Source: Norana najaformis
Taxonomy: Eukaryota > Annelida > Clitellata > Crassiclitellata > Hormogastridae
Length of the DNA: 64,000 bases
Direction: 5' to 3'
Assembly (NCBI GenBank): GCA_964023275.1
Contig: OZ029922.1
Location: 2,541,034 to 2,605,033 of the forward strand
Program-made: the position numbers and the translations under genes
Shown here: positions 3,112 through 59,250 of the stretch, piece by piece
Layout: every line of letters starts with the position of its first letter
Numbering within the stretch: the first letter of the stretch is position 1
The notes under the pieces: generated by a model
Told to the model about the DNA's origin: nothing
Database searches by the model: none
Seen by the model: the letters and a program-made list of their open reading frames with translations, nothing else

Positions 3112-6100
3112 GCGCCACGTATACTCAAAACGGCGACATCTCGGCCTTGTTCTCAATAAAGAGGCCTCCGATTTTTAATTTCCGCCATCTTGTTTCGTAA
3201 CGGCCGCGGCGGACGAAAGCAACATTATTAACAAGATCGTATTTCGGAAAATACGCCATCTGCCGTCACTTCTCCTTTGTCAATAGCAACCGCGACTACC
3301 TTCCATCCCTCTAGCAGTCTGTCCTCGGGTGAAGAGGACAACAGCAACGATCGTGTTGCACTGGAATATGACAACCGCTGTTGACAACGGGGGATTGTTA
3401 ATTAAACGATATCGTGCTACAAGTAAATTGACGATTCAATAAGTTATGACGGACGAACTGAGCAACTGATGGTAGAGCGCTTTCGACAGGTCAAAGGTTG
3501 CTACTTAATTAATGCAAGAACAGGTACATACATACATACATACATACATACATACTACATACATTTATATATACATTCATGTATGTACGAATGAATGTAT
3601 CTACATACATGCATACATATACATGCTTGTGTGCGTGCGTACATACATGCATGATTACATACATACTGAATACATACATACATACATACCACATAAATGC
3701 ATACATACATACCACATAAATGCATACATACATTCATGCATGATTACATATACACCGAATACATGCATACCTACATACATACTACATACACACATGCATA
3801 CTACATACATGCATGCATGCATGTATGCATACATACATACATACTGTATACATAATTATATACATATACAACTTGAATACATCAGATGTTTAAACCCGAG
3901 GTAGAAATGAACCCTCTGGACACAAATTCCCCGGAGATCACATCGTAATCGTCTTCCTGCTGTTTACAGAGGAACTGTTTGTTTTACTGGTTCTCAGCCT
4001 GGCTGATGCACATGATCTCCAAAGGTCAGATGCTGATCGTTAAGGCCGGCGAAACGGTCCAACTGGAGTGCGAGTTCTTTTCCGAATCGTTCGGTCTCTT
4101 CGAGAATCCGACCGTCTGGCGAAAGGCGCAGAGACTCGAAGAGTCACAGATTAACATGATGGGCAACCTTCTTGAACCTTTCGCCTCCGCCAAGAGGTTT
4201 AGGGCGACCTTTCAACCCCACGCTCCAAGGTTCCTGTTTGGACTCACGATCACAGGTAAACCAGCTATTCTTTGCGAACATATATAAAACAATTCTCTTA
4301 GATGTTCGATTACGTATGCAGTCCCACAGTAGATCGTAATCGTAATCCCGAGATTTCTGCAGCGTCCAACGAAGGCCACGTCAGAGGACCAGCTTATTCA
4401 CAGACGCTCAGTCAAAACAAAATCGATAGGCAAAAGGATTCTGTTCCAGATCAAGGTCCAAAAATCAGGCAGAGAGAGTGTAGCAGCTACGGTGGGTGGT
4501 GTTTGAGACTGGAGCAGAGAGAAAGATAAGAGGAAGAAGGGGTATCAGGGATAGGATCTGTGAAAGAGGAAGGTTTTCAGTTTTGAGTGAAAGGCGAAAG
4601 CAGAAACTGCAAGTGCTGGAGCATGGATGAGTCTGTATGATGGGTCAGATAACTGTCGCACTTAAGGGAAGTTTATTTCAGTGGTGGGGCAGCTATGGCT
4701 ATGGAGCGATTACCAAATTTTAAGGATTAGGTGATGGAGGGAGGGGCGGAAAAGTGTTAGGGCAGAAGAGGAGCGAGTTGAGCGAAGTCGTTGGATTGTA
4801 AATAAGTATTTCTATCTCGGACTATCACGGCCGGCATCCGGGGATCGGAAACAACGTGTAATCCATTCAGACGGGCAGCGGTGGTGAAGGAAATGCCCCG
4901 ATAAATTCGCTGAGAAAAGGGAAAGGGTCAAGGTTATACGGACGTTACAGAAAAGTGTATACACAAATAAATGTGCATAATACGAGTCAAATTTAATAAA
5001 TGATTCATCGCAGGACCTGCCACGTTTTCTTAACTTCTTTCACGACTTCTCACGAGCCTGAATTCTGAGATGGCAAACAACGTCGCCGAAAACACAGAGT
5101 GGCATTAATTTCGCAGAAGTCGCCGACAAATTGCAAATGGCAAAAGTTCTGTTGCATGTTTTATTATTGACATCTTTTCTGATATCGTGAACATCTCGCC
5201 CTGTAGCGGCGCTGCATTTGAATAAGTGGACAGGACCGACTGTGACGTCCGAGCCTCAACTGGTCATTTCGCTGTCACGACAGCTGTGGCGTGATTAAAG
5301 TGGACTCATAGCCGGTGTATGAATGCTGTCCGCCGCTCGCATTCCGTCCGCCTGTCCCAGGAGGACCCCTGAAATGAAAGTCGTGTTGACGCATCTCTTC
5401 TCGTTACAAGCAAATCTATCACTCCAGTCATCAGGTGGCAAGGTGTATGGCGGGAAACACGTCGCCTTTGCGTCCGGTGTTGATACTGATACTAAAAGTG
5501 AATGTCGATTCGCTGATAAGACTAAGGGGTCGTCCAGTAATGATGTCCGGGAAGAGGGAGAGGGAGGGACCACCAAAATGCGGACAAATGAGGAAAACAG
5601 GACGGGTTATGTCCAAAGCGGCCGGCCGTATCTTGATGTGGTACATAGTAAAAGTAAAGTATCCCATATAACACAAGTGACACGTACATGTAGGGGAGGC
5701 TCTGATCTCCTTTTCTGCAGGTCCTTGAGCTGGCAATGGACGAATTGTTTGGAATTGGATAGGGTAATCTAGGCCTAAGGATTCCGCTGGAATGCGGGCG
5801 TCCGCAAAACAGGGAGGAGACAAAAGTAGGTCACCTTTTCGGACGTCCTTTGTGCACGACCTCTGTTTATCGGGCGAGAAATTATTCTGTTCTTCAACTG
5901 TTTTTGTCTCCAATGGATCACGACGGCTTCTTCAACGGACTACGGTTCTTGACTTAAGCTTACCTGAAGCAACTACCTGTCGAACATTTATATCGCGCCT
6001 TTAAAGAACCTTACACACACTCAAAGACGGCCAACCAATATGTCTATCTAAAAATGTGCGACTCAGAATAAGCCGAGAATCTGTCTCGAGCTTTTCTCAG

Positions 6101-9064
6101 GCGGAAGAGTTCGGATTTTTAGGAAGGATGCTCCAATATAACAACTTATGAAACTCGCAGCGATCTTAATTCTTGCAATTTAATCACCGAAGCCATTAAT
6201 AAATTAGCGATTTCGTTAGCTATAGACGAAGGCAACGGAGGCTTAAAGGAATTTTCGGCACAGGAAAAGAAGCCGTAGCATATTGCCTGTGTCAGCTAGC
6301 GGTACATCATTTAGTCACGCTTGCTTGATAGCAGAGGAGACCGGGGCAAACATGATGAGACAAGAGGTGAACTGGGGTGATGCAAGATGGATGGGGAACG
6401 GAAAGCAATAAAGAAGAAACCGAACTGAAAAAGGGAAACGAGTGCAGAATGGAAGGGTGAAAAATGTAAAGTAATGTAAATCTCCGAAATATATCAGCAG
6501 CACACGTAAGCCGTGTCAGAGAGACAGGCTTAAACACCGGAGCTATATCAATTCAAGTTCACAAGAGCCAGGATGTTTGATCGGTTTCGGTGCCAGGTCG
6601 GAATATGTGGGTCGGGTCGGAGGAGAGGAGGGACAGGACTAGCCATCCGACCTCATGAACTGAGGCTAAGAAAATGAAGTCGCTAACACTTCGTACCCAT
6701 AGATGCCTCTCAGCGTCAGCTTAATAGACTGTTCTTCTTCTTGCAGAAATCTAGATGTTCCAATAGTTTTGCTATAACTAATGTATGTAGGCCTACAACT
6801 TCAGAGTCGAAGAAAGTAGTTTTCAAATAAGTAATCCATGTATGACTAGCAGGTAGCATATAACATAGCTAATTCTGAAACTATACTTTAACTCGCGGCT
6901 ACGCTTTAAATGGCGTGGCACCCATTTAAACTGGCAGCGGTGGGAAGGACCCCACCCGAATAATTAATTGAAATTAAGCAGGGTCGATGCAATACGGTCA
7001 CTGTATAAAAACGTATCCATTTACATTTATTTACGCCACTACCAAGCTCAGACAATCTGCAGCCTGCTAATGCTTCTCTGTATTCTTTGGTTAACTTTTC
7101 ACATTTTCATAAGGCAGCATACTTTAATGGGCCAAGGCTACTCTTTAAACCACATTTCCACTTGCTCAGCAAACTTCCTGCCCGTTAATTATGACTGCAG
7201 CCGCGACTGATCAGTAAATGAGAATACTTAATCTGGACGCTAAGCTCAGGGTCACTGAACTCTCTGTCCTTTGTTACTTGGCTGATATGGTTGTGATGTG
7301 TTTTTTCCTGGACAGATGTGTCACTGGAGGACAACGGAAACTACACGTGTCACATAAACGGGCCACATAACACGATTCTTTCATCAGTTACTCATTATAT
7401 CTTCGTGACAGGTCTGTACGATTCAATGTTGCCGCAAATGAATCCCGCAAAATTGTACAGGCAAAGGTAGCAAACTTGTTATTCGTCTCTGCATAGAATC
7501 TTTTAAGAAAATGGTTCGGGGGTTAGAAATATATTTATTGAAATGTCATTGAAATGCATAGTTAGTTGGACTTGGTTCTTGACATGACATCTCTGGACAA
7601 CCCCTCTGACTTGACGCAGCACTCGTGAATAAGTTTACGATTACAATAAGTTACCTAGTTAGTAGCCAGCTAGATACTTAATGAAGTACATTTCAAGTAC
7701 TCACAAGAACATACTTGAAGTACATAAATGCGACACAGCATGTACTTACTTGTTTTTTACTTACTCGATTTATTACGCGCGCAAGATCAATAAATATGAA
7801 TCCGATGTGTGAGACAAGCATGCTCGAACAACTTGTCCATGGTCGTTACATGGAGTCCGCTCAGCAGGTTCGAATCCGCAATCGTTGGATTACAAACCCG
7901 GCGCATTGCCGAATAGATCAGAAACATGTGTGTATATATTGCCCGCAAATTAAGGCCGAAAAGGTAAAAGTACTGGTAACAGACTCTCCATTGTAAGAAC
8001 TTATCTCAGACAATCGATTAGTCGCGGCGCAGTTTGAATGAAATCTTGAAACCAGTCGCGTCTCATCAGTTACACGTACAAGTTCGTGACAGATTTGCAC
8101 GCATCGTCTTATTCAAATATCACCCAAAGCTTCAATTATAAATTGTTCCTGAGAAAATCGTGACTAAGTTGCACCAAACACCGGCCGCGTGCTACCAATC
8201 GACTATCACACGACTCCGAATCGTGCGGTATTTCAAGCCATTGCATATTCAGAAACACAGATGGCAGTCCACTATATCCCAGTCGCCAGAGACGAAAATT
8301 TTGTTCTTACACAAGGTCTACCATTTTTCATACATTCTCGATATTTACACGCAGTCAAACTCACTATGAAGCTACTCCATCGCTGCCTGGTACTGGCATA
8401 GGGAGGTTCAGACATATCAAGCCGGGTTAGTTATTTAAGTGACTGACCGTGCGTGGAATACCACGCCATCTGGCGCCCGTTCAGGCCTCCATCTTTTTTT
8501 GGTCGATAATGATTCCGAACACAATAACATAACATAACCATAACATTAACATAGAACATAAGCATAACATAACATAAACATAACAAAAACATAACATAAA
8601 CATAACATAACAACTAATAACATTCGTTGGTTGTGTATCGCTTAGCTCCGGTTGACCGCGTGGTCATCACAGACGACAACTCGACCCAGCTGGACCTCGG
8701 TCGTCGCCTGAACCTCATCTACACCGAGAACCAATTCGGTCTACTACGCTGCATCGCTCTCGGGGGCTCCCCACCACCGGACATCCACGTCTATCTCGAC
8801 CAAGACGACATCACGGCTCAGTTCACCCTGACGAGGACCCCGACGATGAGCAGACGAAAGGGACTTCGACTCGTCTACTACACGACCGAAAGGTCAACCA
8901 ACCTGTTCCGGGTTCAACCGAGAGACGATGGCAAGATGGTCAAGTGCGTCGTCTCGGTTCCCGGATCTCCGTCCAACTACTCGCTCGCACGGATAACGGT
9001 ACACTGTGAGTCTGCCTATTTTATTAATTAACTAACTAAAATTATTTATTTGTTTATCTATCTC

Positions 9065-15800: not shown

Positions 15801-18800
15801 GAGGTGCCGAATAAGCGCTGATGATGAGGTGGTGGTGTTGGTCATTAGGATACTGCTGCTGATGATGATGATGATGACAACGACGACGATGAGTTGGGGT
15901 CATCTAACTGGATCAGCTGCGTGGCCCCTCAGAGGCGCCTGATGATGACGATTACGATGATGATGACGCCGGCAACGATGATGGTTGTAGTCTAGTTGGT
16001 GTAGTGGTGATGATGCTGACGACGATGAAAACGACGACAGTCACTAATCACAGTTTCTCTGACCTAAAGGAATTCGACCTGACTTCTCCACTCGATTATG
16101 ATTTTGATTACGATTTCGACTGATGCCTTGGGCATTATGATAACGGCGCCATAGAAGTCAACAGATTAGATTAGATAGGTAAACACAACCCACCCTAACG
16201 GCTCCTCTCCCGTTCTCTCTCTCTCTCTCTCTCTCTCTGGTCTTCTGGCAACCGGACTTGGTTCTTGACACGACATCTTTGCACAACCCCACTGACTTGA
16301 CGCAGCTCTCGTGAATAAACCGGTGCCCTGCGCTCAGCGTACAGTGATCTATCGATAAAGCGTTTGGTCAATGATCATGGGGTTGAAGGTTCGACTCCGT
16401 GTAACGACCCTGTGCGAGTTGTCTGGCAACACCGTGCTTCTGTCACCCAGCAGTAGAATCTGGTACTAGGTAAAAGGTGAAAGGTAAACAAGAAGTCCTG
16501 CGATGCACTGGCCCCATGTCCAGGACCCTGGTATTCATCCATTGCCGGCTCAGAGGCCCAAGAAAAGGAAATGAGCGCCTCCCCTACGTCTCACTTGTGG
16601 GGTACGGGATACTTTACGTTACTGTGCTTAGCCTTTAAGTAGCGCTATATAAATTTCGAGTTTACCATTACGATAACGATTAAGACAAGTTATGTACGAA
16701 TGTTTTGCCAGGGGCCGTTGAGCCACACAGACCGCCTGCCATGAAACCTCCGAAAGCGCCTTTGAACTCCCCGTCCAACACCCACACTCCACCCGCACAT
16801 CACCCTCCAGCGGACGACATAGAAAACCAGCTGCCCTACTTCTTCATCCTCCAACTGCCCAACATGCTCTCCGACGAGCCGACCTGGTCCGAGTGGTCAG
16901 CGTGGTCAGCCTGCGGGGTCAGCTGCGGTGCCACGTCAAGGCAGGTCAGACGTCGCCACTGCCAGCAGGGGCTCGAAGGCGCTTGCCCAGGGGACTCGAC
17001 GCAGTGGAGGACGTGTAAGACGGCCCCGTGCCCCAAGGAGAACCCGCTACACCAGGTGGGGCAAGCGGGAACGCCGCGGGGAGCGACTGGGCATATGCCT
17101 AAGGGGGACGGGAAGTTTCCAGTGCAGGAGGTCGCCAAGGAGTTTGGAAAACTGGACCGTGGGAAGATGGGGTTGAATGGCTTGGTGGAACATCACAAGG
17201 AAGATGCACAGCGGAAAGGAGTGGTGGACGAAAATAAACCGGAAGTAGAGGGAGAAGAGGAACAACAACGTACGTATCTATATAATTATCTGACCCATCG
17301 CACGAACTCACCAACACCTAACCTTTTGCAATTTCTTTGCAGGTCTTCCACTCAAAACTGAAAACACTCCTCTTCCACAAATCCTATCCTGATTTTCCTC
17401 TTCCTCTTATCTCACTTTCCGGTTCAATTCCAAACACCATCCACCGTAGCCGTCTGACTGCCTGCCTGACTCTTGGATCTTGACCTGGAACCAAACCCTT
17501 CTTGCCTATCGATTTTGTTTTGACTGAGAGCCTGTCAGTAAGCTGGTTCCGGCGACATAGCTTTTGTTGGGCGCTGTATAAATCTCAAGTTTATGCTTAC
17601 GATTACAACAATAGCCCTTGAATTCTGGTTCGTGGTCAGTGCAGTACATTTCGAATAGACGCCGACCCTATCTCGCGACTAATATGAAAAAAATTATAGC
17701 TAATAGAGAGAAAGAAGGGATTTTCCCCAGAAGGGATAACAATCTGCCAAAAACTAGAGCTCAGTTGTACTGCATTGGACAGAAAAGTGTTATTTAAAAG
17801 GCAACATACAAGTTACTAATTACAGTAGAACATAACTTCAGAATATTATCATAGTTTGTTACTTATGTTGCTCTGTGGAATGTCTGTGTGCATGAATGCA
17901 TGTGCGCGTATGTATGGATGTATATGTACGTATGTATGTAAGCAAGTGTGCATGTATGTGCGTATGTCTGTATGACTGTATGTACGCATATGTGTATACA
18001 TGTATACATGTATGTATGCATGTGTACGTACGTACGCAGTCTTGTAAAGATTCATATAGCACCTTTTAAGAAGACTGGGTCAAAGGGTTTGCAGACACCC
18101 ACCCTATCTGGTATCATAATCATCTATCCATCAATTTATCAATCCACCATTCCATTCATTCATTAATTCATATATCAATCCATCTATTCACTATTCATCA
18201 GTCCATCAATCTATCCATCATCCATCCATTCATTCATCCATCCAGCCACGCATCCATCATCCATCCTCTATACCTAAATGTAAATGTGCACGGTTTTTTA
18301 TAGCGACTGTATAGCCTCGACCCTGCCCATTTTTTAATGAATTTATCAACCCATCCACCCACTCATCATCCATCCACCCATCCATCCATCCATAAACCTA
18401 TCCATCCTTCCGCACACAACAATCCATCCATCCATCCATCCACCAGTCGCTCAAACAACATCTCACAACACAGCAGCCCAAAACCTCACCTTTGCTTATT
18501 ATTTCCAAGGCCATCGCTATATTCTGTAGCATCCTCCGGATCAGTCACGGACCGTCTGGAATGGCACGAGTGCCTCAGCCCGTGTCCCTACAAGATCCAG
18601 CTGAGACGCCGGTGGTGCTACCTCGGCCAGTACTGCGTCGGAGCTACCAGGGAAATCCGAGTCTGTGCCTGTGGTCAAGGAGATCTCGTTTCCTGCGGAA
18701 CAGTTAACACGACCGACATTCTGGAATTCAGTAAGTGCTGGTGAAGGTGTTTGTGGTCGTTGTGGTGAAAACACTGGTGGTAGTGGTGGTGATAATGATG

Positions 18801-20265
18801 ATTATGACGATTATGATCTAAGCGATCATCGATTGATGCCTTAGAGATTGACTGATGCCTCGTTATAGAAGTCATTAGATTAGATTAGATGACGACTATG
18901 ATGAAGACGACTTTGACGATGACGATGATAATGACGACGAGCAGGACAACGATGATGACGATGACGATGATGATAATGACTAGACGGTCGCGTGTTCGCA
19001 GAATCAAGTTTTCTCACATAACAAGTTCATTAAACAAACAAATTCCGATGACGACGATAATCAATATTGTTGCTACGGTGATGACCTCTGATCCCTTTGA
19101 ACTGGACAGGTGACACGAATAACCATTCGACGCCATGGACGGACACCCACATCGGTTGGTCCCTGTGGACCCCGTGGGCGTCGTGCTCGTCCGAATGTAA
19201 CTTCCACGTCGAGGTGGTCAACCGGTCAAGGCTTTGCCTGGACGCTTGTGGACAGGAGATCTTGACCATCTGTCACAGTCAGAACGACCGGGTCAGGGTC
19301 TGCCGCGAAGATCCCGAGGCCTCACTTACGTCGCCTCCGGTCTGCGGTCAGGTGGAGCACTGGAAACTGGGTAAGATATTCAGGTGGCAAATGCCCTCCT
19401 CATATTTCGTAATATAATGACCCTTACCCATCTTAACTGTTTTGTTTAACCAGACTCCCCCCATCGTCTTAGACTGCCTTGTCTCACCTTATTTTACTTC
19501 ATGTATACCCTACCTTGCAATGCCTTACTTTACCTTACCTCAGCTTCTCTTAATATTTTAATTACTTTACCTTTCCTATCCTAGTTAACTTAACTAACCT
19601 TACCTTACCTTACTTATCTTGACTTATCTTACCTTACTTACCTTAACTTACCTAACTTACTTACCTTACCTTACTCTTATTGTCGTACCTAAAATTGTCC
19701 TACTGACCTTACTTAATAGTCTAACCTTACTCTACCTTACCTACCTTACACTGATTGACTTAACTAGCCTTCTCTTTCCTTGATTGTCTTGCCTTCATTT
19801 ACCTGACCTTACTTACCTTAACTTACCTTACCTAAGTTTCCTTACCTTACACTTACTGTCGTATCTTACTTGCCCTACTGGCCTTACTTAACTGTCTAAC
19901 CTTAACTTGCATGACATACCTTGCCGAATCCTAAATGTCTTACCTTGACTCACCTGCCTTTCATTTATCTCGTTCCAGACGAAGACGCAGCAGCAAAGCG
20001 ACGGTCGTTCTTCCCATCGAGCAGTCGTCTGATTCATGCGATCGTCATCTTCGTCCTCTTCGCTCCGCCGATCATCCTCCTCTTCTACTGGCTCCTGTCG
20101 AGGGCACACAAGCCCCGCTACGAGTCCCTCCCGTCGGCCTCGTCGGCCGGGGAGTCGGCCGTGGATGCCAACGGCCAGCCTTCGATCTCGGCCGACGTGA
20201 CGTCCGCCCTTGGACCGAACCATGTGACGGTTGAAACGAATCCCAATGCGTGGAAGACCGTCTAA
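835..20265 (+). CDS. Ig/thrombospondin-1 single-pass receptor (10-exon gene model)
   Basis: Joining 835-889, 3998-4255, 7316-7411, 8646-9005, 10065-10240, 13013-13127, 16712-17269, 18530-18730, 19110-19370 and 19979-20265 gives 2367 nt, or 788 codons plus stop. All introns are GT-AG and phase 1, except the one after exon 5, which is phase 0. Domain order: signal peptide (1-18), Ig1 (about 30-135), Ig2 (137-256), Ig3 (257-353), a proline-rich linker, a canonical TSP1 with a WSEWSAWS start (about 411-461), a charged linker, two TSP1-like Cys modules (exons 8 and 9), a membrane helix (about 712-733) and a 55-residue tail. Uniform phase-1 introns are typical of extracellular modular proteins. The Ig-then-TSP1 order recalls UNC5 netrin receptors, but no ZU5 or death domain is present, so I do not assign it to UNC5. 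The function is unknown; adhesion or guidance is an inference. An AATAAA signal follows at 20639. Confidence 0.85.
960..1075 (-). repeat. tRNA-derived SINE copy
   Basis: The minus strand reads CGGTAGAACGGTTGGT (box-A-like), then GCGAGTTCGAGCCTGC (box-B-like), then a conserved tail GACTCCGTGTAACGACCCTGG. Related copies with the same tail lie at 7810-7935, 11810-11935, 16350-16475 and 50272-50385, which makes a dispersed SINE family more likely than a tRNA gene. No cloverleaf acceptor stem is visible. Confidence 0.65.
1448..1486 (+). CDS. possible cassette micro-exon in the Ig/TSP1 gene
   Basis: A pyrimidine-rich tract ending TCAAG is followed by 39 nt and a GTTAAG donor. The segment is open in phase 1-1, so inclusion would add 13 residues with two cysteines just after the signal peptide without shifting frame. 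The joined model works without it, so it is optional at best. Confidence 0.25.
1680..1912. repeat. CATA microsatellite
   Basis: Imperfect (CATA)n, becoming near-perfect from about 1806 to 1912. It accounts for the H/T/Y-only ORFs on the plus strand and the C/M/Y/V ORFs on the minus strand. Confidence 0.9.
1981..2520. repeat. 15-bp minisatellite, 36 units
   Basis: The unit is CTCCRTCCTTAACCT. Reading R by eye gives 21 G-type and 15 A-type units, with no other change in the body of the array. Between 2221 and 2400 the order G-A-G-G repeats three times, a 60-bp higher-order unit. Because 15 is a multiple of three, frames stay open and yield artificial repetitive ORFs (ERLRT or KDGEV on the minus strand). 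Confidence 0.95.
2793..2850. repeat. CAGA microsatellite
   Basis: About 14 tandem CAGA units, followed by CATA units to about 2911. Confidence 0.9.
3057..3108. repeat. CA dinucleotide repeat
   Basis: (CA)n with two early interruptions (ACCTACAC). Confidence 0.9.
3525..3865. repeat. long imperfect CATA tract
   Basis: Degenerate CATA/TACA repeat with internal copies of a longer phrase (ACCACATAAATGCATACAT at about 3689 and 3711). It ends shortly before exon 2. Confidence 0.85.
3998..4255 (+). CDS. Ig/TSP1 gene exon 2: first Ig domain, N-terminal part
   Basis: The acceptor is TTACTGGTTCTCAG and the donor GTAAAC, phase 1 at both ends. It encodes [13 protein letters not shown], the A'-B strands with the first Ig cysteine, and ends just before the E-F turn. 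The ORF is open upstream, but an earlier start (3970) would be out of phase with exon 1, which decides the 3998 boundary. Confidence 0.8.
4330..4640 (-). repeat. LINE 3'-end copy (family A)
   Basis: This copy carries the markers of family A in the antisense sense: TAATCG tail, GAGATTTCTGCAGCG core, ACCAGCTTATTCACAG and CAAAATCGATAGGCAAAAGG. In the other orientation the distal part reads like the end of a LINE ORF ([13 protein letters not shown] in better copies such as 17340-17612). Confidence 0.75.
4830..4990 (+). repeat. repeat family C fragment
   Basis: GGGCAGCGGTGGTGAAGG, AGGGTCAAGG and a GGACGTTACAGAAAAGTGTA core match copies at 6900-7030, 31905-31985 and 34770-34915. In those copies a tail of ATTTAC/ACATTT units follows the core. 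Confidence 0.6.
5200..6000. other. overlapping ORFs of unknown meaning in intron 2
   Basis: Overlapping open frames of up to about 160 codons occur on both strands, with somewhat higher GC than the surroundings. I see no domain, signal peptide or repeat match in any frame. They are probably chance ORFs within intron 2. Confidence 0.3.
6900..7030 (+). repeat. repeat family C copy
   Basis: ATGGCGTGGCACCCATTTAAA, GGCAGCGGTGGGAAGG, AGCAGGGTCGATGC, then a degenerate core (GTCACTGTATAAAAACG) and an ATTTAC-type tail. Antisense copies lie at 18280-18345, 36660-36785, 39275-39395, 39995-40120 and 50915-51050. Confidence 0.65.
7316..7411 (+). CDS. Ig/TSP1 gene exon 3: first Ig domain, C-terminal part
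   Basis: It encodes [16 protein letters not shown], the classical D-x-G-x-Y-x-C signature of Ig strand F, and completes Ig1. Acceptor CCTGGACAG and donor GTCTGT, phase 1 to 1. Confidence 0.85.
7560..7640 (+). repeat. LINE 3'-end copy (family F)
   Basis: TCTGGACAACCCCTCTGACTT, GACGCAGCACTCGTGAATAA and a GTTTACGATTACAATAA tail. Family F shares its tail type with family A. Other copies: 13265-13400, 16245-16680 (split), 48965-49075, and antisense 32395-32610, 40820-40985 and 43010-43150. Confidence 0.65.
7810..7935 (-). repeat. tRNA-derived SINE copy
   Basis: The minus strand shows ATTGCGGATTCGAACCTGC (box-B-like) and the family tail GACTCCATGTAACGACCATGG, as in the copy at 960-1075. Confidence 0.65.
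8425..8500 (+). repeat. 5S rRNA-derived repeat fragment
   Basis: AGCCGGGTTAGTTATTTAAGTG, then TGACCG and GGAATACCACGCC, matches the 3' half of metazoan 5S rRNA (GGTTAGTACTTGG, GGGTGACCG, GGGAATACC). It is followed by the same non-5S tail (GGCGC..TCAGGCCTCCATC) found in the array at 20868-21467, so both come from one 5S-derived retroelement family. Confidence 0.65.
8520..8617. repeat. ATAACAT microsatellite
   Basis: Degenerate tandem (ATAACATAAC)n between the 5S-like fragment and exon 4. Confidence 0.85.
8646..9005 (+). CDS. Ig/TSP1 gene exon 4: second Ig domain
   Basis: The exon carries a whole Ig domain with paired cysteines ([10 protein letters not shown] ... [10 protein letters not shown]), phase 1 to 1. 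Acceptor TATCGCTTAG, donor GTGAGT. Its last ~45 nt and the donor are copied again in the following intron (9549-9625). Confidence 0.85.
9057..9312. repeat. ATCT then ATCC microsatellite
   Basis: (ATCT)n gives way to (ATCC)n with CACC and ATTC variants, just downstream of exon 4. Confidence 0.9.
9420..9990. repeat. CT-rich polypyrimidine tract
   Basis: Degenerate TCTCCTCTT/CCTGCTCC repeats flank the duplicated exon end. The tract explains the F/L/S-rich ORF at 9824-10060. Confidence 0.7.
9549..9625 (+). pseudogene. duplicated end of exon 4 with its splice donor
   Basis: CAACTACTCGCTCGCACGGA and the rest of the exon 4 end, with the GTGAG donor and the following TAATTAACTAACTAA, recur here about 590 bp downstream. 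There is a 4-nt deletion near the left end and no acceptor in front, so it should not be spliced as an exon. Confidence 0.85.
10065..10240 (+). CDS. Ig/TSP1 gene exon 5: third Ig domain, N-terminal part
   Basis: [20 protein letters not shown] followed by IFWIINGNG gives strand B cysteine and strand C tryptophan of an I-set-like domain. It enters in phase 1 and leaves in phase 0 (GTC ATG then GTAGGA), the only phase change in the gene. Confidence 0.8.
10330..10430 (-). repeat. LINE 3'-end copy (family B)
   Basis: CTAATGACTTCTATAATGCC followed by CACATGACATCAATCAGTGG is the antisense family-B end. It abuts a GGTG/GGAT microsatellite (10434-10540). Confidence 0.55.
10434..10540. repeat. GGTG/GGAT microsatellite
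   Basis: Imperfect (GGTG)n passing into (GGAT)n. Confidence 0.9.
11040..11120 (+). repeat. LINE 3'-end copy (family D)
   Basis: CATTAGACACAGGCGCTATAGAAG then an AATAAATAATT tail. A longer sense copy is at 30660-30845; antisense copies lie at 33390-33540, 35590-35860, 37000-37080, 57185-57372 and 59375-59630. Confidence 0.6.
11315..11580. repeat. ATAATACAACAT satellite-like tract
   Basis: Degenerate repeats of ATAATACAACA with CATCATA variants. The C/Y/M/L-rich ORF on the minus strand is a product of this repeat. Confidence 0.85.
11810..11935 (+). repeat. tRNA-derived SINE copy
   Basis: CGGTAGCGCGCTGGGTCTG (box-A region), GATCGAGCCTGC (box-B-like) and the tail GACTCCGTGTAACGACCTTGG. Confidence 0.65.
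12811..12884. repeat. CT dinucleotide repeat
   Basis: About 37 CT units with one TTT interruption, about 130 bp before exon 6. Confidence 0.95.
13013..13127 (+). CDS. Ig/TSP1 gene exon 6: third Ig domain, C-terminal part
   Basis: [11 protein letters not shown], then [11 protein letters not shown], reads as strands E to G of an Ig domain. The usual strand-F cysteine is replaced by leucine (YTL instead of YTC). Phase 0 in at CAGACGAG, phase 1 out at GTTAGT, matching its neighbours. Confidence 0.7.
13265..13400 (+). repeat. LINE 3'-end copy (family F)
   Basis: TTTGGACAATCCCGCTGACTT, GACGCAGCGCTCGTGAATAA, then CGAGATTACGATTACGATTA tail. Confidence 0.7.
13400..13830 (-). repeat. long LINE 3'-end copy (family B) with RT C-terminus
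   Basis: The minus strand ends in GGCGC-type core sequence plus CATTATGATAAAG. Further upstream it translates, across one frame slip, as a degraded LWNSL motif followed by [17 protein letters not shown], the typical end of a non-LTR reverse transcriptase ORF. This shows that family B is a set of 5'-truncated LINE copies. Confidence 0.75.
14078..14235 (-). repeat. LINE 3'-end copy (family A)
   Basis: CTCGAGATTTCTGCAGCGCCC, GGGAACCAGCTTATTCACAGG and AGTCAGGCAGGC identify the family. Confidence 0.75.
15730..16040. repeat. GATGAT-rich degenerate repeat
   Basis: Imperfect (GAT/GAC)n in intron 6. Similar tracts occur at 18775-18990 (intron 8), 38065-38112, 57030-57150 and 61640-62030. Confidence 0.8.
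16245..16680 (+). repeat. family F LINE 3' end split by a nested SINE
   Basis: Family F runs to TGCGCTCAGCG (about 16331-16341) and resumes at TGTGCTTAGCC (about 16625), ending CGCTATATAAATTTCGAG with TTACGA tail. The roughly 280 bp between them include a tRNA-like SINE (16350-16475). The near-repeat TGCGCTCAGC / TGTGCTTAGC at the two edges looks like an aged target-site duplication. Confidence 0.6.
16712..17269 (+). CDS. Ig/TSP1 gene exon 7: linker and canonical TSP1 repeat
   Basis: A proline-rich segment leads to [16 protein letters not shown]...RRRHC...WRTC...CP, a textbook thrombospondin type-1 repeat with the W-x2-W-x2-W start and six cysteines. A long charged, probably disordered, linker follows. 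Acceptor TTTTGCCAG, donor GTACGTA, phase 1 to 1. Confidence 0.9.
17340..17612 (+). repeat. family A LINE 3' end with ORF remnant
   Basis: In the LINE sense this copy begins with frames reading [14 protein letters not shown], the usual end of a CR1/L2-type RT ORF. It then runs through TATCGATTTTGTTTTGACTG to GGGCGCTGTATAAATCTCAAG and a TTACGATT tail. Confidence 0.75.
17875..18100 (-). repeat. ATGT microsatellite with family E core
   Basis: ATGT/ACGT repeats join ATATAGCACCTTTTAAGAAG, the antisense family E core. Confidence 0.6.
18115..18460. repeat. ATCC-rich microsatellite interrupted by family C
   Basis: CCATCCATC-type repeats, interrupted at 18280-18345 by an antisense family C core (TTTTTTATAGCGACTGTATAG). 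Confidence 0.75.
18530..18730 (+). CDS. Ig/TSP1 gene exon 8: TSP1-like cysteine module
   Basis: [11 protein letters not shown], then [11 protein letters not shown] and VCACGQG, gives eight cysteines with TSP1-like spacing but only one of the usual N-terminal tryptophans. Donor GTAAGT, phase 1 to 1. Confidence 0.8.
19110..19370 (+). CDS. Ig/TSP1 gene exon 9: second TSP1-like module
   Basis: [15 protein letters not shown] is a clear TSP1 start; RSRLC, CGQEIL and RVRVC continue the cysteine pattern. Acceptor CTGGACAG, donor GTAAGA, phase 1 to 1. Confidence 0.85.
19470..19970. repeat. CTTAC pentanucleotide-like tract
   Basis: Degenerate CTTACCTTAC repeats fill the last intron. The same low-complexity family appears at 46060-46310 (same strand) and as its complement at 41470-41590 and 42800-43000. 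Confidence 0.85.
19979..20265 (+). CDS. Ig/TSP1 gene exon 10: membrane helix and tail
   Basis: A basic KRR precedes a hydrophobic run [19 protein letters not shown], then SRAHKPR as a stop-transfer signal. A 55-residue Ser/Ala/acidic tail without a recognised domain ends WKTV before TAA. The final residues do not fit a class I PDZ ligand. Confidence 0.85.
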
Positions 20266-20638
20266 GTCGGTCCGCTTGGCTGGCTGGCTGGCGAAGGAAG
20301 AACGATTTCCTGGAAAAATTGCCTGTGGAAAAATCGAACATTCCTTCTTGAGTGGACTATTTTCTGTTTCGAGTGTTATAAAGGAAATCAGTTTGTAAAG
20401 TAAACAACGTTTCCTGAATTCATAATATTATTCTTGTTTACACCTAGAAGGGAACTAAACGCAAATTAGGCCTCTTACATCAGAAATGACTGAATCTTTA
20501 AAGTTACTGATAAAAATTCGCGTTATACATGGCTCTACTTTTTAAACTTGCTCTGGCTTTTACTACACTGAAATCTTGTGAATCTTCAATCGCTGTATAC
20601 AGACTTCCTCCCTCGGTTTAAACTATATGTAACCTGCT

Positions 20639-20644
20639 AATAAA
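20639..20644 (+). promoter_or_regulatory. poly(A) signal of the Ig/TSP1 gene
   Basis: AATAAA about 375 nt after the stop codon. The intervening stretch is AT-rich without repeats, as expected for a 3' UTR. Confidence 0.6.
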
Positions 20645-20761
20645 TTCGTCGATTAAAATGAATTTCCGTACAACATTTCGTGTAACCATGGTTGTTGCTT
20701 AAAACGTCAGCTTTTAAATCCAGTTTTGCAATCGTTATTAGATATAAAACAATTTACAGGT

Positions 20762-20798
20762 TAGATTAGATTAGATTAGATTAGATTAGATTAGATTT
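20762..20798 (+). repeat. TTAGA-type tandem tract
   Basis: (TTAGA)n immediately before the 5S array. This is the family B tail motif, but no family B core precedes it. Confidence 0.7.
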
Positions 20799-20867
20799 GA
20801 TTGCTAGTGGCCGCTGGGGTTTGTTGATACGACACATTGAGTCGCAGTTCAGACAGATCCAGCGAGG

Positions 20868-21467
20868 TAATACTTGTGTGGGTGACCGTCCTTGGAATAC
20901 CACGCTACAAGGCGCTTACTCAGCCCTCCACCCTTTCAGAGATAATACTTGTGTAGGTGACCGTCCTTGGAATACCACGCTAACAGGCGCTCACTCAGAC
21001 CTCCATCCTTTCAGAGGTAATACTTGTGTGGGTGACCGTCCTTGGAATACCACGCTACAAGGCGCTTACTCAGCCCTCCATCCTTTCAGAGATAATACTT
21101 GTGTAGGTGACCGTCCTTGGAATACCACGCTAACAGGCGCTCACTCAGACCTCCATCCTTTCAGAGGTAATACTTGTGTGGGTGACCGTCCTTGGAATAC
21201 CACGCTACAAGGCGCTTACTCAGCCCTCCACCCTTTCAGAGATAATACTTGTGTAGGTGACCGTCCTTGGAATACCACGCTAACAGGCGCTCACTCAGAC
21301 CTCCATCCTTTCAGAGGTAATACTTGTGTGGGTGACCGTCCTTGGAATACCACGCTACAAGGCGCTTACTCAGCCCTCCATCCTTTCAGAGATAATACTT
21401 GTGTAGGTGACCGTCCTTGGAATACCACGCTACCAGGCGCTCACTCAGCCCTCCATCCTTACAGACA
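20868..21467 (+). repeat. 5S rRNA-derived tandem array, 8 x 75 bp
   Basis: Eight 75-bp units start at 20868, 20943, 21018, 21093, 21168, 21243, 21318 and 21393. Each begins TAATACTTGTGTRGGTGACC and continues to GGAATACCACGCTA, matching the 3' part of 5S rRNA, including the box C segment bound by TFIIIA. A shared non-5S tail follows (GGCGCTNACTCAG.CCTCC). Two unit types alternate (150-bp dimer), and a C/T difference in the tail alternates at 300 bp. The 5' half of 5S, with box A and the intermediate element, is absent, so these are not 5S genes. The open frame across the array (226 codons) exists only because 75 is a multiple of three. Confidence 0.85.
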
Positions 21468-21774
21468 GGATGCATGAGCATTGAGGCAAGTTGGAATGTT
21501 GGAAAGATGTCCTGTTTTTGGATTGCTGTGGTGTGTTATCTCGATGGTTTTACCTTACCTTTCCTCGAAAGGTAAAGATAAGACAATTTGCCCCACATAG
21601 CTCGACTTTGGCCCCTTTAGAGCCTACCTGCCCGGATTAGTCTATAGGTTTCCGTTGGCTATTCATGGCGATGTTAAGTGTGTATCAATTAACAGCTTAA
21701 CAAACTTTGACCTTTAAAGTTCTACAACTCTTTAAAAAATGGGAGTTATCTTTGCAGACAGTTAAGCAGAGTAG

Positions 21775-21995
21775 TATCAGTACCCTTCTTCCTCTTATCT
21801 CTCTCTCTCTCCGCTCCAATCCAAAACATCACCCACCATAGCTGCCACGATCTCTGCCTGACTGTTGGATCTTCACCTGGAACCAACCCTTTTTGCCTAT
21901 CGATTTTGTATTGACTGAGCGCTTTTGAATAAGCTGGTCCCCGTGACGTGGCTTTCGTTGGGCGCTGTAGAAATCTCGGGATTACGATTACCCTG
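21775..21995 (+). repeat. LINE 3'-end copy (family A)
   Basis: CCTATCGATTTTGTATTGACTG, GGGCGCTGTAGAAATCTCGGG and a TTACGATTA tail. Confidence 0.75.
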
Positions 21996-22149
21996 TGTTT
22001 CAAGACATTTTACGTCTGCCAAGGGCTTTGAAGTCGACCTCACATTAAAACCTTACGGAACGACTGAATGACAGAATGCAGGAGTCCTCTGCATAGGCCT
22101 ATTTATACAGTATTCCCTCACCTATCGGAATTCGACATGATTTTTTCAA

Positions 22150-22250
22150 CGAATAACGGTATTTGACGGCGATTTCACTTGAAGCGACCATTGATTGAAG
22201 ACGTATGCATTATATAAACGGCGCTGTCGAAGTCATCAGATAGAGATTAC
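22150..22250 (+). repeat. LINE 3'-end copy (family B)
   Basis: TTCACTTGAAGCGACCATTGA, then ACGGCGCTGTCGAAGTCATCAGA. Confidence 0.55.
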
Positions 22251-23380
22251 CAAAAATGCAAAAAATACATTATACCGAACTTACAATGATGGACAGGTGT
22301 CAAAAGTTGGTTCAAACATAACAACACTGTTCCGCGTTCGCAAAGATGCAAATACGATTGATCGTCATAGAATGACTTGAAGATAACTTTGCATATAGGC
22401 CTATACTCACTTTAGAAGAAGCCTATATACATGTATATCATACGACTCTTACGAAGTTTGTATATGTATACAGAGATGTGTATGTATAAGTTTATATCAT
22501 GTATGTATAAGTTTACAATGATATAAATCCGAGAACATCTAGATAGGATGGACATCCTCTTGCACAAAATATGTTCGATGCGCTTAATGTAATACTTAAA
22601 GTGTAGACCCATGGGTGATTGAGTGCCAAGTGTGTACAACAGTTCATGCATGCATCAAAACGGGTGCGATTACCTTACTACCGCCGTGTCTGTGCTAGAG
22701 AGGATTAGTGCGGAGGTTGCTTCCGACTCAGCCGTTTCTTCAAAGCCTTATGCGGTTCTCCGCGGAGTCTTTTAAGATGGACTGGTAAGTGACCGCGTCA
22801 AGTAGATTACAGGCAACGACAACCAAGTCTGTATCTGGAACTTAATGTAGCGCTTTAAAGAACTTCTCGAAGGCGTCTGAATGATGCAACGGTCCAGTAA
22901 GAAAGAAATGTTCACCCGCATGCGATGAAGCACGAAAAGCAGGAAAGACCTCCACCGGTAGGCTCTCGTAGACACGTATAACCAAACCAACGCTGCGTGT
23001 GAAGCCGATAGAAAGGTTCGTTTTGTGCGCTTCAGAATTGAGAGTTTACCGTAAGGCACTTCTTACCTTAGTAGTCATAACGATTGGCTTGGTTAATACT
23101 ATTTCATTAGACATATTACGACAGAGGTCTTCACCGACACTGTAGGTCAATAACGCTAATGTTGCACGTGTTGTATTGCATGAAGTGTTATGTTTACACG
23201 CATTGCTTTGTGTTTGTCGCAGCTGCAGTTTCAGTTTAGAAATCAGTTACAGTAATTTCAGTGTCAGTTTTCAGGGACAGAATCGTTCATGGCAATTTTA
23301 GTGGCAATGAAGTTAGATATTGCAAAAGGTAATTAAGTTGTTCATTCCGCGTCAACTTTCTGGGAATAACATCTTCTTCC

Positions 23381-23719
23381 ATGCTTGGCCACGTCATTAA
23401 CATTACGGTGGAAACGCGGGATGTAGAGCAGTTAGCTTTTCCCATCATTCGCGAGGAAACGGTTCTTGAGCTGAAAACTTCGATCCAGGTGAGGAAGCAT
23501 ATCACCATCTAAGACCAACAACTGATGTAGGCCTACAATGAAATCGAACTGGATAACATGGATCTCCTGCTCAATTACAACATCATGAACGGATTGACAT
23601 TTCAGTCGATTGTGGTCGGTCAACCTGACCAGGACGTCGATGGCTGTCTTCCGACTAAAGAAAAGGAAATAGGTTTCCTGGAGTCGCAAGGGTCTTCGGA
23701 AATTCTGGTTAGACACTAA
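23381..23719 (+). pseudogene. ubiquitin-like domain ORF with two in-frame stops
   Basis: One frame from ATG to TAA (113 codons) translates as INITVETRDVEQLAFPIIRE, ETVLELKTSIQ, VRKHITI, stop, DQQLM, stop, then AYNEIELDNMDLLLNYNI and GLTFQSIVV. This follows the ubiquitin fold's landmarks: a beta hairpin, the TV-x-ELK helix, DQQ, the DxxLLxYNI turn and a final strand. The stops are TAA at 23510 and TAG at 23528. Both lie in a 42-nt stretch (23489-23530) that starts GTGAGG and ends AG, so a very short in-frame intron is an alternative to pseudogene decay. Since that stretch itself encodes the ubiquitin-like DQQ, loss of function is more likely. No neighbouring exons were found. Confidence 0.6.
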
Positions 23720-25914
23720 GATTATCAAATAATGACCCTGTAACTCTGAAAGAAGATTGTAATTTCCAATAATGATTTCGTAATGCTGAATGGACATTGA
23801 AATTACTCACCAACGATTTCTGACTGGACAATGGACACTAAAATTACCAATAGTTTATAGACGAATCCTACGTTACCAACTTTCTTGTGTCAATGTTACA
23901 TATAATTGAGGTAGATTCATTTTCCGGTGATTTTACAATATTTCCAGCAATTAAACGATATTGCTTTCTCAAGTTTTTCTCTCGATTTGACTAAGTATTC
24001 GTTACGTACTGTTACTTTTGAACTGCAGCAATTAAATTTGCTTTCAGAATTAATAATCCTCATATTTTGTTCTCTTTCACCTTTTTGACATTAACAGGGA
24101 ACGAATATAGAACTAATTTCAAAATTTCTATCAAAATGATGAATTTTTACCTACATAAGACGCTTGCACGAAATATAAATTTAGCAGTTTGAAACTATCT
24201 GGGATACGATATGTGGAGACACGAATGATCCATGGTTTAGTAAATGCTGCCACAAAAGTCGGATATTTCAAGAATTCATATTGATATTGGGTTCAGCATT
24301 AAAGTAAAAGGACGATCAGTGCACTGACGGAAGAATTTTTCCTATCAGTATATAGTTCAGTGCAAAGTAAGTGCAAAACAAACGAAATGCAACACAGTTT
24401 AGTAAATCAATACAGTGCAGACTCTGAGCTTTTGCGTCTTTCAAAGAGACGGAATTGCATCCGTCGTCTTCTGTCTCTGACAGCTTCTTCTTCTTCTTCT
24501 TCTGGTTCTCTGCCCTCTAGGCAGGTTCATACGTCTCTGTGACAGCATAGTTGGATTATACAGATTCACATGTTAAAGTAACATACAGCTGTCTTGCCTG
24601 AATTTATTAGTTCAACTTTCCTTTAAAATATCACAGAAGTTAGTTCAATTACATGCAAACAAGTAACGTATTAATACAGAAATGTTATAAATCAAGAACG
24701 AGAGACCACAACAAACTTTATAACATCAACAGTTCTGGCAATTTCAGAAAATGAAAAATCATAGCAGAATCAATCTAAAAATTGCCTAGCAGAGAAACTA
24801 GAAGGTGATAACAAACTATATATTACCTGCAATACTGGCAACTGGAGTCTATAACAAACCACACGTTGCTAAAATCGTGGCAAAATAGAAAAGACTAAAA
24901 AAAAGCCCATTAAATAGCCCAACCAAGGCAATTGGCCTAAATAATCACATACAGGCAGCTCACTGAAAGTTATTTTGAAGATTTCAAAGTGGGATTTGAG
25001 AAGCAGTATAGAAGTCAACAGCCAAGACAGAATTTAATCACGAAACTTAATAAGGTTATTGCTGGTAATTAGGTCAGGTTAAAAAAGCTGAAGCAGAATC
25101 TATTTAGCAGTTAATGTGACATCACTAAACTACGGATACTAAAATGTAATGTAAAAATGCATTTCACTGTATAATAATTGTATTTTTCATTGTATATAAT
25201 TGTATAATAATTACAGTATAATGTAATTACTAACTTACTTACATAGAGGGCTTTATATAGCTTCTTTGTTCCTTGCTCAAGTGATACACATATGGCTGTT
25301 TAACAAATACATTACTTATTTACTTACTTAAACAAAAACATAAGTAGTCCATGCAGTTATAAACAGTTTTAGTTTTCACTCATCTCTTCCTAGTTTTTCA
25401 CATAAAACACTGAAAATTAGAAATAAAACTAAATAAAATTAGTTTCACATCACACTCCAGGATTCGACCCTTCGACACTTGTAATATTAGCTAAAAACAA
25501 TGCTTTCTTGAATAGACCGACTCATTTGGTGACGCTGCATTGCACGATCAAATAGCAATTCAAGTTGTGGCAACAGTTTGGTTACAATACCCTGATTCTA
25601 TGAGTCCCTACTTGGTTACGGATTGCACTATGAAAAATAACTCAACAGACTGTGAAAATAACTAAGTTAAAATAGTACACTTGGCATTAACAGAAGCACA
25701 ATTTATTGGAATTAACATAAGCACAACTTACGTGAAAATAAATGTCTGCAATGAGATATTTCTTCAGAACAAATGAGTGTGTAGTTCACGTCGAAGACTT
25801 TGTCCAGGATAATACATGTAGAAACTAGGAGATGCTTGGTCTCCTTCACCTGAAATGTACACAACACATCATCACATAATTAAAAGATGCTCAATAGTTT
25901 AAGTGTACAAAGTC

Positions 25915-27848: not shown

Positions 27849-48450
<20,602 letters not shown>

Positions 48451-51235: not shown

Positions 51236-53030
51236 CTGTAAAAATCTTTCGCTTGGTTCTTTGTCCAACTGTCCGGCGGTGTGTGTGGGCTTACGTGCGC
51301 ATGCATGTATGTTAATTGCTCAAGCGTAGCCAATCTAAATTATTCATGGTCGACGTTCCGCTAGCTGGTGGTGCGTGTGTCCAGGCATGTGCAGACTAAG
51401 AAATATGAGGATCGGAAAACGAAAGCTCGTTTACGCTGCCTGCGGAGATAGAATTACTTTACGATCAGGCAATTGTTAAGATAATGCAATGGTCAAGATA
51501 CGATGACAAGAAGATGGGGAAAAGATAAGAAAGCAGGAAGAAGACATAAAGAAAGAAATAGATAGATAGAGACAGACAGACAGCCAGACAAAGGAAGAAA
51601 GAAAAGAAAAAGGAAGGATGACAGATAGACAGACAGGAAAATGGATGAAAAAGGCAGGGCGGCAGGGATGGAGGCATAGGAGTGAGGGTAGGCAAGCATC
51701 CAGACAGCAAAGGAGGGTGGGAGGCAGACAAGAATGGAAAGGGAGACACAAGAGGGGAACAGGGGCAGAGATGGACGGACAAGCGGACGGAGGGAGGGAG
51801 GGAGTTGTCTGATGTTTCTTTTGGATGGTCTTTAGATTTTGGTCTCCTATCTTACGGTGGTGTTCATTTAACTACCCCAAAGGCATGAAGGAATGAGTGT
51901 GCACCAGGCTAAAAGTCTCTTTCAGAGCTGTTGCATGAACAAGACCACAACAATCCAGAGACAGTACACCGACTGCCACGATATTCATTCACTAACCCAA
52001 CAGGATGGACTGAGAAATTGTCCCAAGTGGGTGGTATTCATCGATGGTAACCCATCCAAACAACGTACTAACCGGGCTTGATGTTGCTTAACTGCACCTT
52101 GCACTAGCGACATATACAGAGCAACAAGATGTTGCCTTACTATCAAAGATGTTACTTTACACGAGATTATACTCAATATTTAAGACAATTACAGGGCATC
52201 AGACAGGATATGACTAAAAGAAAGATAGGACTTCTTTCGCTTTCTGTAGTGTTTTGTAGTGTAGTTTTGTAGTGTTCTATAAGTATCTTACTGTTGTTCA
52301 GTTTTTTGTAGCGTTCTCTAGTTTTTGTGCTTTCTGTAGTCTCCATACTGATATTGTGCTTTTCAATAGAATTCCAGTTTTCTGGTGTTCTATAAATTAC
52401 TGTACTCTTGCAGTGTTATGCAGTATTTTGACTGTAGCTGTTGTACTTGTCTGGTTTTCCTGTAGTGTAATGTAGTTTTCCTGTAGCGTAATGTAGTTTT
52501 TCTGAAGTGTTCTCTAACTTTTTCGTCATGTACTCTAGCTTTGTGGTTAATGACAAATACACACATCAATTCCTGATAAGAAAGATATTGGTATCATTTA
52601 CAGTACATGTAATTCCTGAGAAAATTAAAATTTTAATAATATGTTTGCAGTAGCTCTAGATTAACTAAATTTCCAGTGCCAGTATCATTACTGTTCCAAC
52701 CGATTTTAGTAAAAGCATAATTGCTATTTAAATTATTGGCAAAACTTCAGAACAATACAAGGCTGGTGTAATCACATTGACACACTATTAATTTTGATCA
52801 AAACTAAAATGTTCATAAAAATTAACTGAATCTTAAGGTATTTCATACCATTTAAACAAAAATTTTAATAATTTGTTATATGCCTTAAGCCTAATGAAGC
52901 TATAAACCATCTTTTAGCCTAGCAAGATTAGCTAAATGTGATTAGATAAATAATTTGGCTAAAGCACACAATCCAACCCCAAAATACAACTTAGGTTAGT
53001 AGCATTCAAATATTTCTTCATTAAGAAAAG

Positions 53031-57680: not shown

Positions 57681-57970
57681 GACGGACGGACGGACGGACG
57701 GACGGACGGACGGACGGACGGACGGACGGACGGACGGACGGACGGACGGACGGACGGACGGACGGACGGACGGACGGACGGACGGACGGACGGACGGACG
57801 GACGGACGGACGGACGGACGGACGGACGGACGGACGGACGGACGGACGGACGGACGGACGGACGGACGGACGGACGGACGGACGGACGGACGGACGGACG
57901 GACGGACGGACGGACGGACGGACGGACGGACGGACGGACGGACGGACGGACGGACGGACGGACGGACGGA
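57681..57970. repeat. uninterrupted GACG tetranucleotide array, about 72 units
   Basis: 290 bp of GACG without an interruption. It produces RTDG ORFs on the plus strand and SVRP ORFs on the minus strand, none of them genes. A CpG in every unit would make the block heavily methylatable. Confidence 0.98.
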
Positions 57971-58764: not shown

Positions 58765-59250
58765 AGCGTGATTGTAATCGTAATTTGTAATCGTAATCGT
58801 AATCTCGAGATTTCTACATCGTGAAGAGAAGATTAAGTCGTGGGAACCAGCTTATAGACAGGTGGTCAGTCAAAACAACAGTCAAAACAATCGTAATAGT
58901 AAGCTCGAGATTTCTATAGCGCCCAACAAAAGCTAAGTCGCTCGAACCAGCTTATTCACAGGCGCTCTGTCAAAACAAAATCGATAGGCAGGAAGGGTTC
59001 GGTTCCAGGTCAAGGTCCAAGAGTGATGCAGGCAGTTAAATCAGACGGCTGTGGTGGATGGTGTTTGGAATTGAACTGGAATCGAGATAAGAGGAAGAGG
59101 AAGAATCAGGATAGAATTATGTGAAAGAGGATAGGCAGGGAAGGGAAGGTCGGTTTCAGGTCACGATCCAAGGTAGGTAGGCAGTAAAACGGCTACTGTA
59201 GATGGCGTCTAGAATTGGAGCAGCGAAAGTAGTAAGAAGAAAAAGAAGAA
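58765..59250 (-). repeat. family A LINE 3' ends, two or three adjoining copies
   Basis: A first partial copy (58770-58880, GTAATCTCGAGATTTCTACAT) is interrupted by a second, nearly full copy from 58885 (GAGATTTCTATAGCGCCCAAC, AAAATCGATAGGCAGGAAGGG). A third, degraded copy begins near 59130. Confidence 0.75.

Follow-up and report, generated by a model that had tools for sequence, protein, structure and literature searches.

An eight-unit tandem array inside one copy of a putative 5S-type SINE: a candidate satellite seed in Norana najaformis

What is the run of eight 75-bp units, resembling 5S rRNA, that lies about 2.56 Mb into a 31.5-Mb contig of Norana najaformis, from what did it grow, and does it do anything? 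We addressed these questions in a 64,000-nucleotide stretch of DNA (the window, C10:2541034-2605033) and by searching the window's own 608-Mb assembly of 17 contigs. TRF placed the array at 20864-21465, with a period of 75 bp × 8.0 (91% matches) and also of 150 bp × 4.0 (98%). The array is real, and the first-pass annotation described its layout correctly: both TRF and a comparison of the units recovered eight 75-bp units of two alternating types, with a C/T site in the tail that changes from dimer to dimer. Units 1, 3, 5 and 7 are type A and units 2, 4 and 6 type B, unit 8 being B-like; A and B differ at six unit sites (4, 17, 45, 46, 54 and 61). At site 68, units 1 and 5 carry C, whereas T is found in units 3 and 7 as well as in every B unit and unit 8. 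The two 300-bp halves of the array are identical at 297/300 positions, and the three differences, all within the last 31 bp, reflect three departures of unit 8 from type B (sites 45, 61 and 73). The array, its surroundings and its relatives in the window are as follows.

16684-20262, + strand: pieces of an upstream animal gene with thrombospondin type 1 domains, from the open reading frame (ORF) list.
20639-20644, + strand: AATAAA, the only one on the + strand within 17238-25422, with the array about 0.2 kb beyond.
20761-20802, no strand assigned: TTAGA pentamer repeat just 5' of the host SINE-like copy (TRF period 5 × 8.4).
20807-20863, + strand: 5' head of the SINE-like copy that hosts the array, aligned from consensus position 2 (GTGGCCGCT...) into unit 1.
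20864-21463, + strand: the eight 75-bp units, in the order Ac B At B Ac B At U8, forming seven adjacent pairs.
21389-21463, + strand: unit 8, B-like; at 45 and 61 it has C, the dispersed-copy majority state (A in type B), and it is off the majority at 17 and 73.
21464-21537, + strand: 3' body of the host copy, directly after unit 8.
8393-8524, + strand: copy B of the SINE-like repeat, with a single unit (HMM E 9.1e-26) and a T7 run at 8494-8500.
51838-52102, - strand: copy C, with body and tail, the window's strongest match to 5S.
30430-30473, - strand: fragment D, a weakly supported short piece of the body (HMM E 0.00096).

The array lies inside a single copy of a dispersed repeat. The host head aligns to the repeat consensus apart from one 6-nt gap and a few gaps of one base, and unit 8 together with the DNA downstream aligns to consensus positions 69-214 (HMM match 21390-21534, E 5e-35). 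Because the head precedes unit 1 and the body follows unit 8, the array grew inside one SINE-like copy. Across the consensus built from 39 other loci, the unit and both of its flanks align in order, and the 75-nt unit is an internal part of this ~305-bp consensus, shorter than the whole repeat. As the SINE sequence flanking the unit survives on both sides, we consider it very likely that the array is an internal expansion of one SINE copy and a candidate satellite seed, most likely without function. A box A-like stretch lies in the host head at 20846-20857 (box A pattern, 4/12 mismatches at 20846). At the three window copies, no direct repeats (target-site duplications) of at least 9 bp were found. 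In the upstream gene, TSP_1 was found in 16684-17358 and 19085-19414 (Pfam E 1.8e-7 and 0.0091, the latter below the cut-off). The last ORF, 19915-20262, has a hydrophobic stretch by eye and matched no Pfam family; the array starts about 0.6 kb past its end. The AATAAA may be the poly(A) signal of this gene.

The match at 8425-8500 noted in the first-pass annotation is real, its alignment covering 8406-8497 with 72.8% identity over 92 columns. This is copy B, which is followed by an ATAAC-type repeat (TRF 8524-8612). RNA of 8406-8497 folds better than shuffled sequence (z -2.87, 1/200 as good) and runs into the T7 stretch, a run that the array units lack. Copy C, read from 52102 to 51838, is a third copy, absent from the first-pass annotation, and matches the HMM at 52102-51918 (E 4.2e-21) and 51908-51838 (E 1e-8). 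The tail shared by the array element and copy C is not significant by itself (109/500 shuffles as good) and is settled only by the consensus model. Fragment D reached E 0.035 with the first model, the best of ten shuffles being 0.059.

Searching the genome with the first 300 bp of the array gave at least 41 matches: two fell at the locus itself and 39 lay elsewhere. These counts are lower bounds, with 40 of the 82 candidates scored. Each of the 39 other loci, selected in this way by similarity to the array, matched once and only in part (51-77 bases, 79-89% identity), and each carries exactly one copy of the unit within the ~860 bases fetched. Together the 39 loci define the ~305-bp dispersed repeat, and many of them, not all, reach both consensus ends. 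A shared 3' tail unit of ~57 nt (CTTCTGAGGAGTTTCTATAGAGG...TTACCTTTACCTT) is present in 26/39 loci. It occurs once in 17 and is absent from 13; in the other nine (L018, L019, L027, L028, L030, L031, L036, L042 and L045) it is found in two to four copies on the 3' side of the SINE, and 12 of 16 spacings between tail units are 48-64 nt. A SINE tail repeat as long as ~57 nt seems unusual.

The array itself has no second exact counterpart in the genome. Exact TGGAATACCACGC words spaced 51-81 bp apart form seven pairs, all of them in the array (reversed-pattern control, 0), and no pair was found at 82-112 bp. Of the 20 occurrences of a related single-unit pattern, the array accounts for 8; copy B is among the other 12. 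These array searches used exact words, which diverged arrays could escape. The description of the array as a young satellite therefore does not hold in a genome-wide sense, since exact paired units are found at this locus only, and 'satellite' overstates one locus of eight units.

How far does the repeat resemble 5S? Against a provisional mollusc-type 5S reference, unit 1 with the head scored z = 12.6, copy B z = 8.3 and copy C z = 20.3, with 0/1000 shuffles reaching the score in each case; the fragment at 30 kb was not significant (29/1000 shuffles). With a provisional human 5S as reference, the array and copy C remained clear and copy B was weak (7/1000 shuffles). The 5S match of the unit claimed in the first-pass annotation is thus far above shuffled sequence with these provisional references. 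A 5S primer segment published from a copepod, TACTTGGATGGGTGACCG (PMC4664967), occurs at up to three mismatches in exactly the eight array units (0.03 matches expected in the window) and nowhere else in the window, the other SINE-like copies included. The consensus of the dispersed repeat contains this 18-nt segment unchanged. The consensus matches the provisional 5S reference over nt 44-105 (score 41.5), and 38/39 dispersed copies outscore every reversed-5S control.

At one of 20 loci scanned with the Rfam 5S model, L014, the alignment runs over 1-120, at the place and on the strand of the SINE, with 24.2 bits against a gathering score of 38 (E 0.018 alone, 0.35 in the 20-locus scan); the other 19 gave no Rfam 5S match at E up to 1. 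Given the consensus match, the scores above controls and the L014 alignment, we read the head of the repeat as 5S-length with a diverged 5' half. Taken by themselves, the heads of the window's three copies resemble neither 5S nt 1-46 nor one another. Capture of the promoter alone, as in the Ajax element, with a shared start near 5S nt 47-49, was considered and dropped after the 39 copies and the full-length L014 alignment. A functional 5S rRNA gene at the array was likewise rejected: in the window, the full 5S model never exceeded its gathering score, and no RF00001 row appeared in permissive scans of the window and of two of its parts. The published 5' 5S primer pattern, shortened, had no match in the window at up to three mismatches. 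A provisional 36-nt 5S core had no exact match in the window's own genome, in viral contigs or in genome contigs, nor did an exact 23-nt unit core in viral contigs.

We read the dispersed repeat as a SINE of 5S type, a label that draws on its head, size and dispersal. The SINE3 class was reportedly described by Kapitonov and Jurka in 2003. Box A, IE and box C are found in the head of the repeat (consensus against the provisional 5S reference, and L014), and dispersed copies in one size class occur at no fewer than 39 loci outside the array. PxSE4 and PxSE5 of moths (PMC8010984) likewise carry box A, IE and box C in a head derived from 5S, are 294-389 bp long (~305 bp here) and have many dispersed copies; the repeat described here differs in the strong divergence of the 5' half of its 5S head and in the ~57-nt tail unit repeated in some copies. 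Ajax, a nemertean TRIM, also carries a partial 5S with box A, IE and box C and a diverged upstream part, but, as described in PMC10886601, it is 421-434 bp long with two LTRs, whereas no second hit to the 5S part was found in any of the 39 loci within ~860 fetched bases, a result with which solo LTRs are compatible. The earlier proposal of a 5S-derived SINE fragment amplified in tandem agrees with these results, as unit and tail lie within a dispersed SINE-like repeat whose head is of 5S type; the 5S match is significant and 5S-containing relatives exist.

The dispersed copies also give a reference for the order of events in the array, which is partly readable because the sequence flanking the unit on either side persists. 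Their majority states are C45 (33/41), C46 (33/41), C54 (27/40), C61 (27/40) and T68 (41/41), with G17 (30/39) and T73 (12/16). As none of 41 dispersed copies carries C68, the state of units 1 and 5 is derived. Unit 8 has the majority state at 45, 46, 54, 61 and 68 and departs from it at 17 and 73; over these seven sites, unit 8 departs twice, At twice (46 and 54), and Ac and B three times each. Without the B-marking changes at 45 and 61, unit 8 looks like an earlier B-type state. Judged by these sites, it is not simply the founder, being off the majority at 17 and 73, and At departs equally often.

The first-pass annotation proposed growth by successive doubling (75, 150, 300 and 600 bp). Our search modelled duplications and mutations and ignored deletions; no history with clean duplications and unique mutations only was found. 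Doubling is part of the cheapest history found, 1-2, 2-4 and 4-8 plus one conversion or parallel change (cost 4), against cost 5 for a history without the four-unit duplication. The dimer draws on six sites and the 300-bp step on one (68). Successive doubling thus appears favoured by one step, not proven, and an additional conversion or parallel change is needed. The search assumed G at site 4, where 21/26 dispersed copies have T and no unit does; as far as seen, the choice of G or T leaves the number of duplications unchanged.

We propose that a SINE-like repeat of ~305 bp with a 5S-derived head inserted downstream of a cell-surface-type gene. An internal 75-bp piece, comprising the 3' portion of the 5S head, IE and box C included, and about 30 bp of body, would then have been tandemly duplicated. 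A short CAG/GA likeness is found between the two ends at the array junction, and the first step may have been slippage at this microhomology. Tandem duplication would then have carried an A-B dimer to a tetramer and on to eight units, with one conversion-like event. These later steps may have occurred by unequal exchange, or alternatively by replication slippage. The locus may thus be one at which the step from SINE to satellite is caught, with the order of events partly legible in single bases.

Does the array do anything? The eight copies of box C could bind TFIIIA or TFIIIC and serve as a decoy, a boundary or a Pol III start, a reading that we consider very unlikely. The motif TACTTGxxTxGGTGACCG is kept in 8/8 units, and the unchanged TACTTGGATGGGTGACCG in the consensus could be counted on the same side, but all eight units share a GA-to-TG change within the 18-nt segment, and B units and unit 8 have one change more, so that type A differs from it at 2/18 positions and type B at 3/18. 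The T at the first of the GA-to-TG positions is also found in 7/37 dispersed copies. The units start after box A. With box A missing and box C altered, the eight TFIIIA-contact-like sites suggested in the first-pass annotation found no support.

Positions of the three boxes in 5S are given as 50-64, 67-72 and 80-97 in PMC6204057. The published two-box pattern in the window at up to four mismatches was found 2 times against 1.70 expected; at up to five it was found 20 times (13.85 expected, largest shuffle 20). The looser cut-offs favour the functional reading, with 152 against 84.70 expected at up to six (largest shuffle 103) and 627 against 403.05 at up to seven (largest shuffle 462); one possibility is that this excess comes from many simple repeats. 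Identity to 5S in the three window elements is 82/117 in the promoter boxes against 52/56 in the bases between them. In the 39 copies it is 979/1320 against 642/723, measured with a provisional 5S reference and with local-alignment ends that favour the latter figure. Box C columns are more uniform across the 39 loci (0.854) than upstream columns (0.756) and those of the later body (0.75-0.79), but this is not clean evidence of constraint because resemblance to that part was what selected the loci. The array contains no T4 terminator run, and RNA of the two unit types folds no better than shuffles (z -0.41 and 0.01); nor was RNA structure beyond shuffles found for unit 1 with its head or for copy C. 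Scanning the array for bacterial promoters and terminators returned nothing and is uninformative for animal DNA. Neutral local expansion is the most likely account of the array on this evidence.

The unit count could also be partly or wholly an assembly artefact, produced by expansion or collapse of a repeat whose near-identical 300-bp halves are hard to assemble. This we regard as highly improbable, as seven sites vary in an ordered pattern over units 1-7, unit 8 has a combination of its own, and 600 bp would be short for long reads.

Tandem units holding 5S sequence might instead descend directly from a 5S gene with its spacer, forming a 5S rDNA-derived satellite of the kind known from the fish Hoplias and the frog Physalaemus. 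This origin is extremely unlikely. The non-5S part of the unit and both flanks of the array are SINE sequence common to 39 single-unit copies, and the match to the provisional 5S reference ends at nt 101-108 in 39/39 copies, at nt 105 in most. The resemblance to the satellites of Hoplias, Physalaemus and Plantago is that 5S stands in tandem arrays; the titles of those reports, as cited in PMC12692304 and PMC5437419, name 5S rDNA as the source, whereas here the source is a SINE-like repeat and there is one short locus.

A coding minisatellite can be dismissed as practically negligible: the unit length of 75 is divisible by three, a single frame runs open across the array over ~230 codons (ORF 20785-21474) and the whole ORF scores 43.8 bits for DUF883_C against a 27-bit cut-off, but only 1/6 frames is open, as chance often produces in a 25-codon repeat, none of the three Pfam rows, DUF883_C included, has a stretch that passes alone, so that the score is summed over repeats, and the unit stems from a dispersed SINE-like repeat.

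Internal expansion of one SINE copy, our preferred reading, has its closest known counterpart in the SINE-derived satellites (sSat) of squamate reptiles (Vassetzky et al. 2023, PMC10702118), of which the array is probably a 5S-type and probably functionless member. There, as here, the tandem unit is an internal part of the SINE (67 nt in snakes, 75 here), made in snakes of the 3' head with box B and some body and here of the 3' head with box C and body. Subvariants often alternate in reptiles, as they do here; terminal units extend into the SINE in both; and the layout seen here, with both SINE ends present and the repeats between them, is an uncommon variant in reptiles (PMC10702118). The authors suggest elongation by dimers. 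The differences are that the reptile SINEs are tRNA-related, whereas this one has a 5S head, and that we found one locus where some reptile species have many: the same source reports thousands in most snake species, and few, variable numbers or none in some. As in the reptile satellites, the unit is part of a SINE (a label not fully proven here), there are at least four repeats (eight), and the terminal units continue into the SINE. Many loci were not found: the exact search gave seven pairs at one locus, and 0/39 fetched loci showed a second unit. Long reptile arrays tend to lie near telomeres; the array here is at about 2.56 Mb of its 31.5-Mb contig.

A 5S-bearing retroelement also forms head-to-tail arrays in tandem Cassandra, but there the unit is the LTR plus internal domain of a plant TRIM, as described in PMC7215508, and here it is 75 bp inside a SINE. 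Among open-licence titles on SINE- or 5S-derived tandem repeats, none concerned a 5S-type SINE satellite; one may be in print elsewhere. The restriction of sSat to squamates is called uncertain by the authors, and the array is a test case for it outside reptiles, with a 5S-type SINE (PMC10702118). By analogy, conversion to satellites might be general for SINEs with Pol III-type heads, beyond reptiles, with the duplicated piece taken from the 3' head and the downstream promoter box kept; we think this doubtful. If it were true, the piece itself would be prone to duplication or bound TFIIIC or TFIIIA would favour it, and the array would be its 5S-type example.

Other tandem repeats occur in the same window. 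Three of the nine arrays with a period of at least 40 bp lie inside repeats that recur in the window (this array, 38651-38790 and 58789-58978). From this and the repeated SINE tails, tandem expansion within dispersed repeats seems frequent in this genome, so that the array is less special. A second dispersed repeat (nine copies aligned, for example 4333-4652 and 17286-17613) has internal tandem duplications at 38651-38790 and 58789-58978, of 50 bp × 2.8 and 100 bp × 1.9, and a perfect (CTGC)39.5 at 42090-42247 lies in one of its copies, at its GGCAGGCAGGC stretch. A 43-bp unit at 31581-31755 (4.1 copies, 98%) is found nowhere else in the window, and a perfect (GACG) repeat fills 57681-57970 (290 bp, 72.5 copies, 100%). 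ARAGORN, in its bacterial-code setting, reported no tRNA in the window. On the - strand, a 473-codon frame at 44658-46076 matches reverse transcriptase (RVT_1, E 1.4e-40) and is LINE-like by eye, and a 761-codon frame at 53034-55316 matches CAP-Gly (E 7.8e-25) and is probably an exon of an animal gene.
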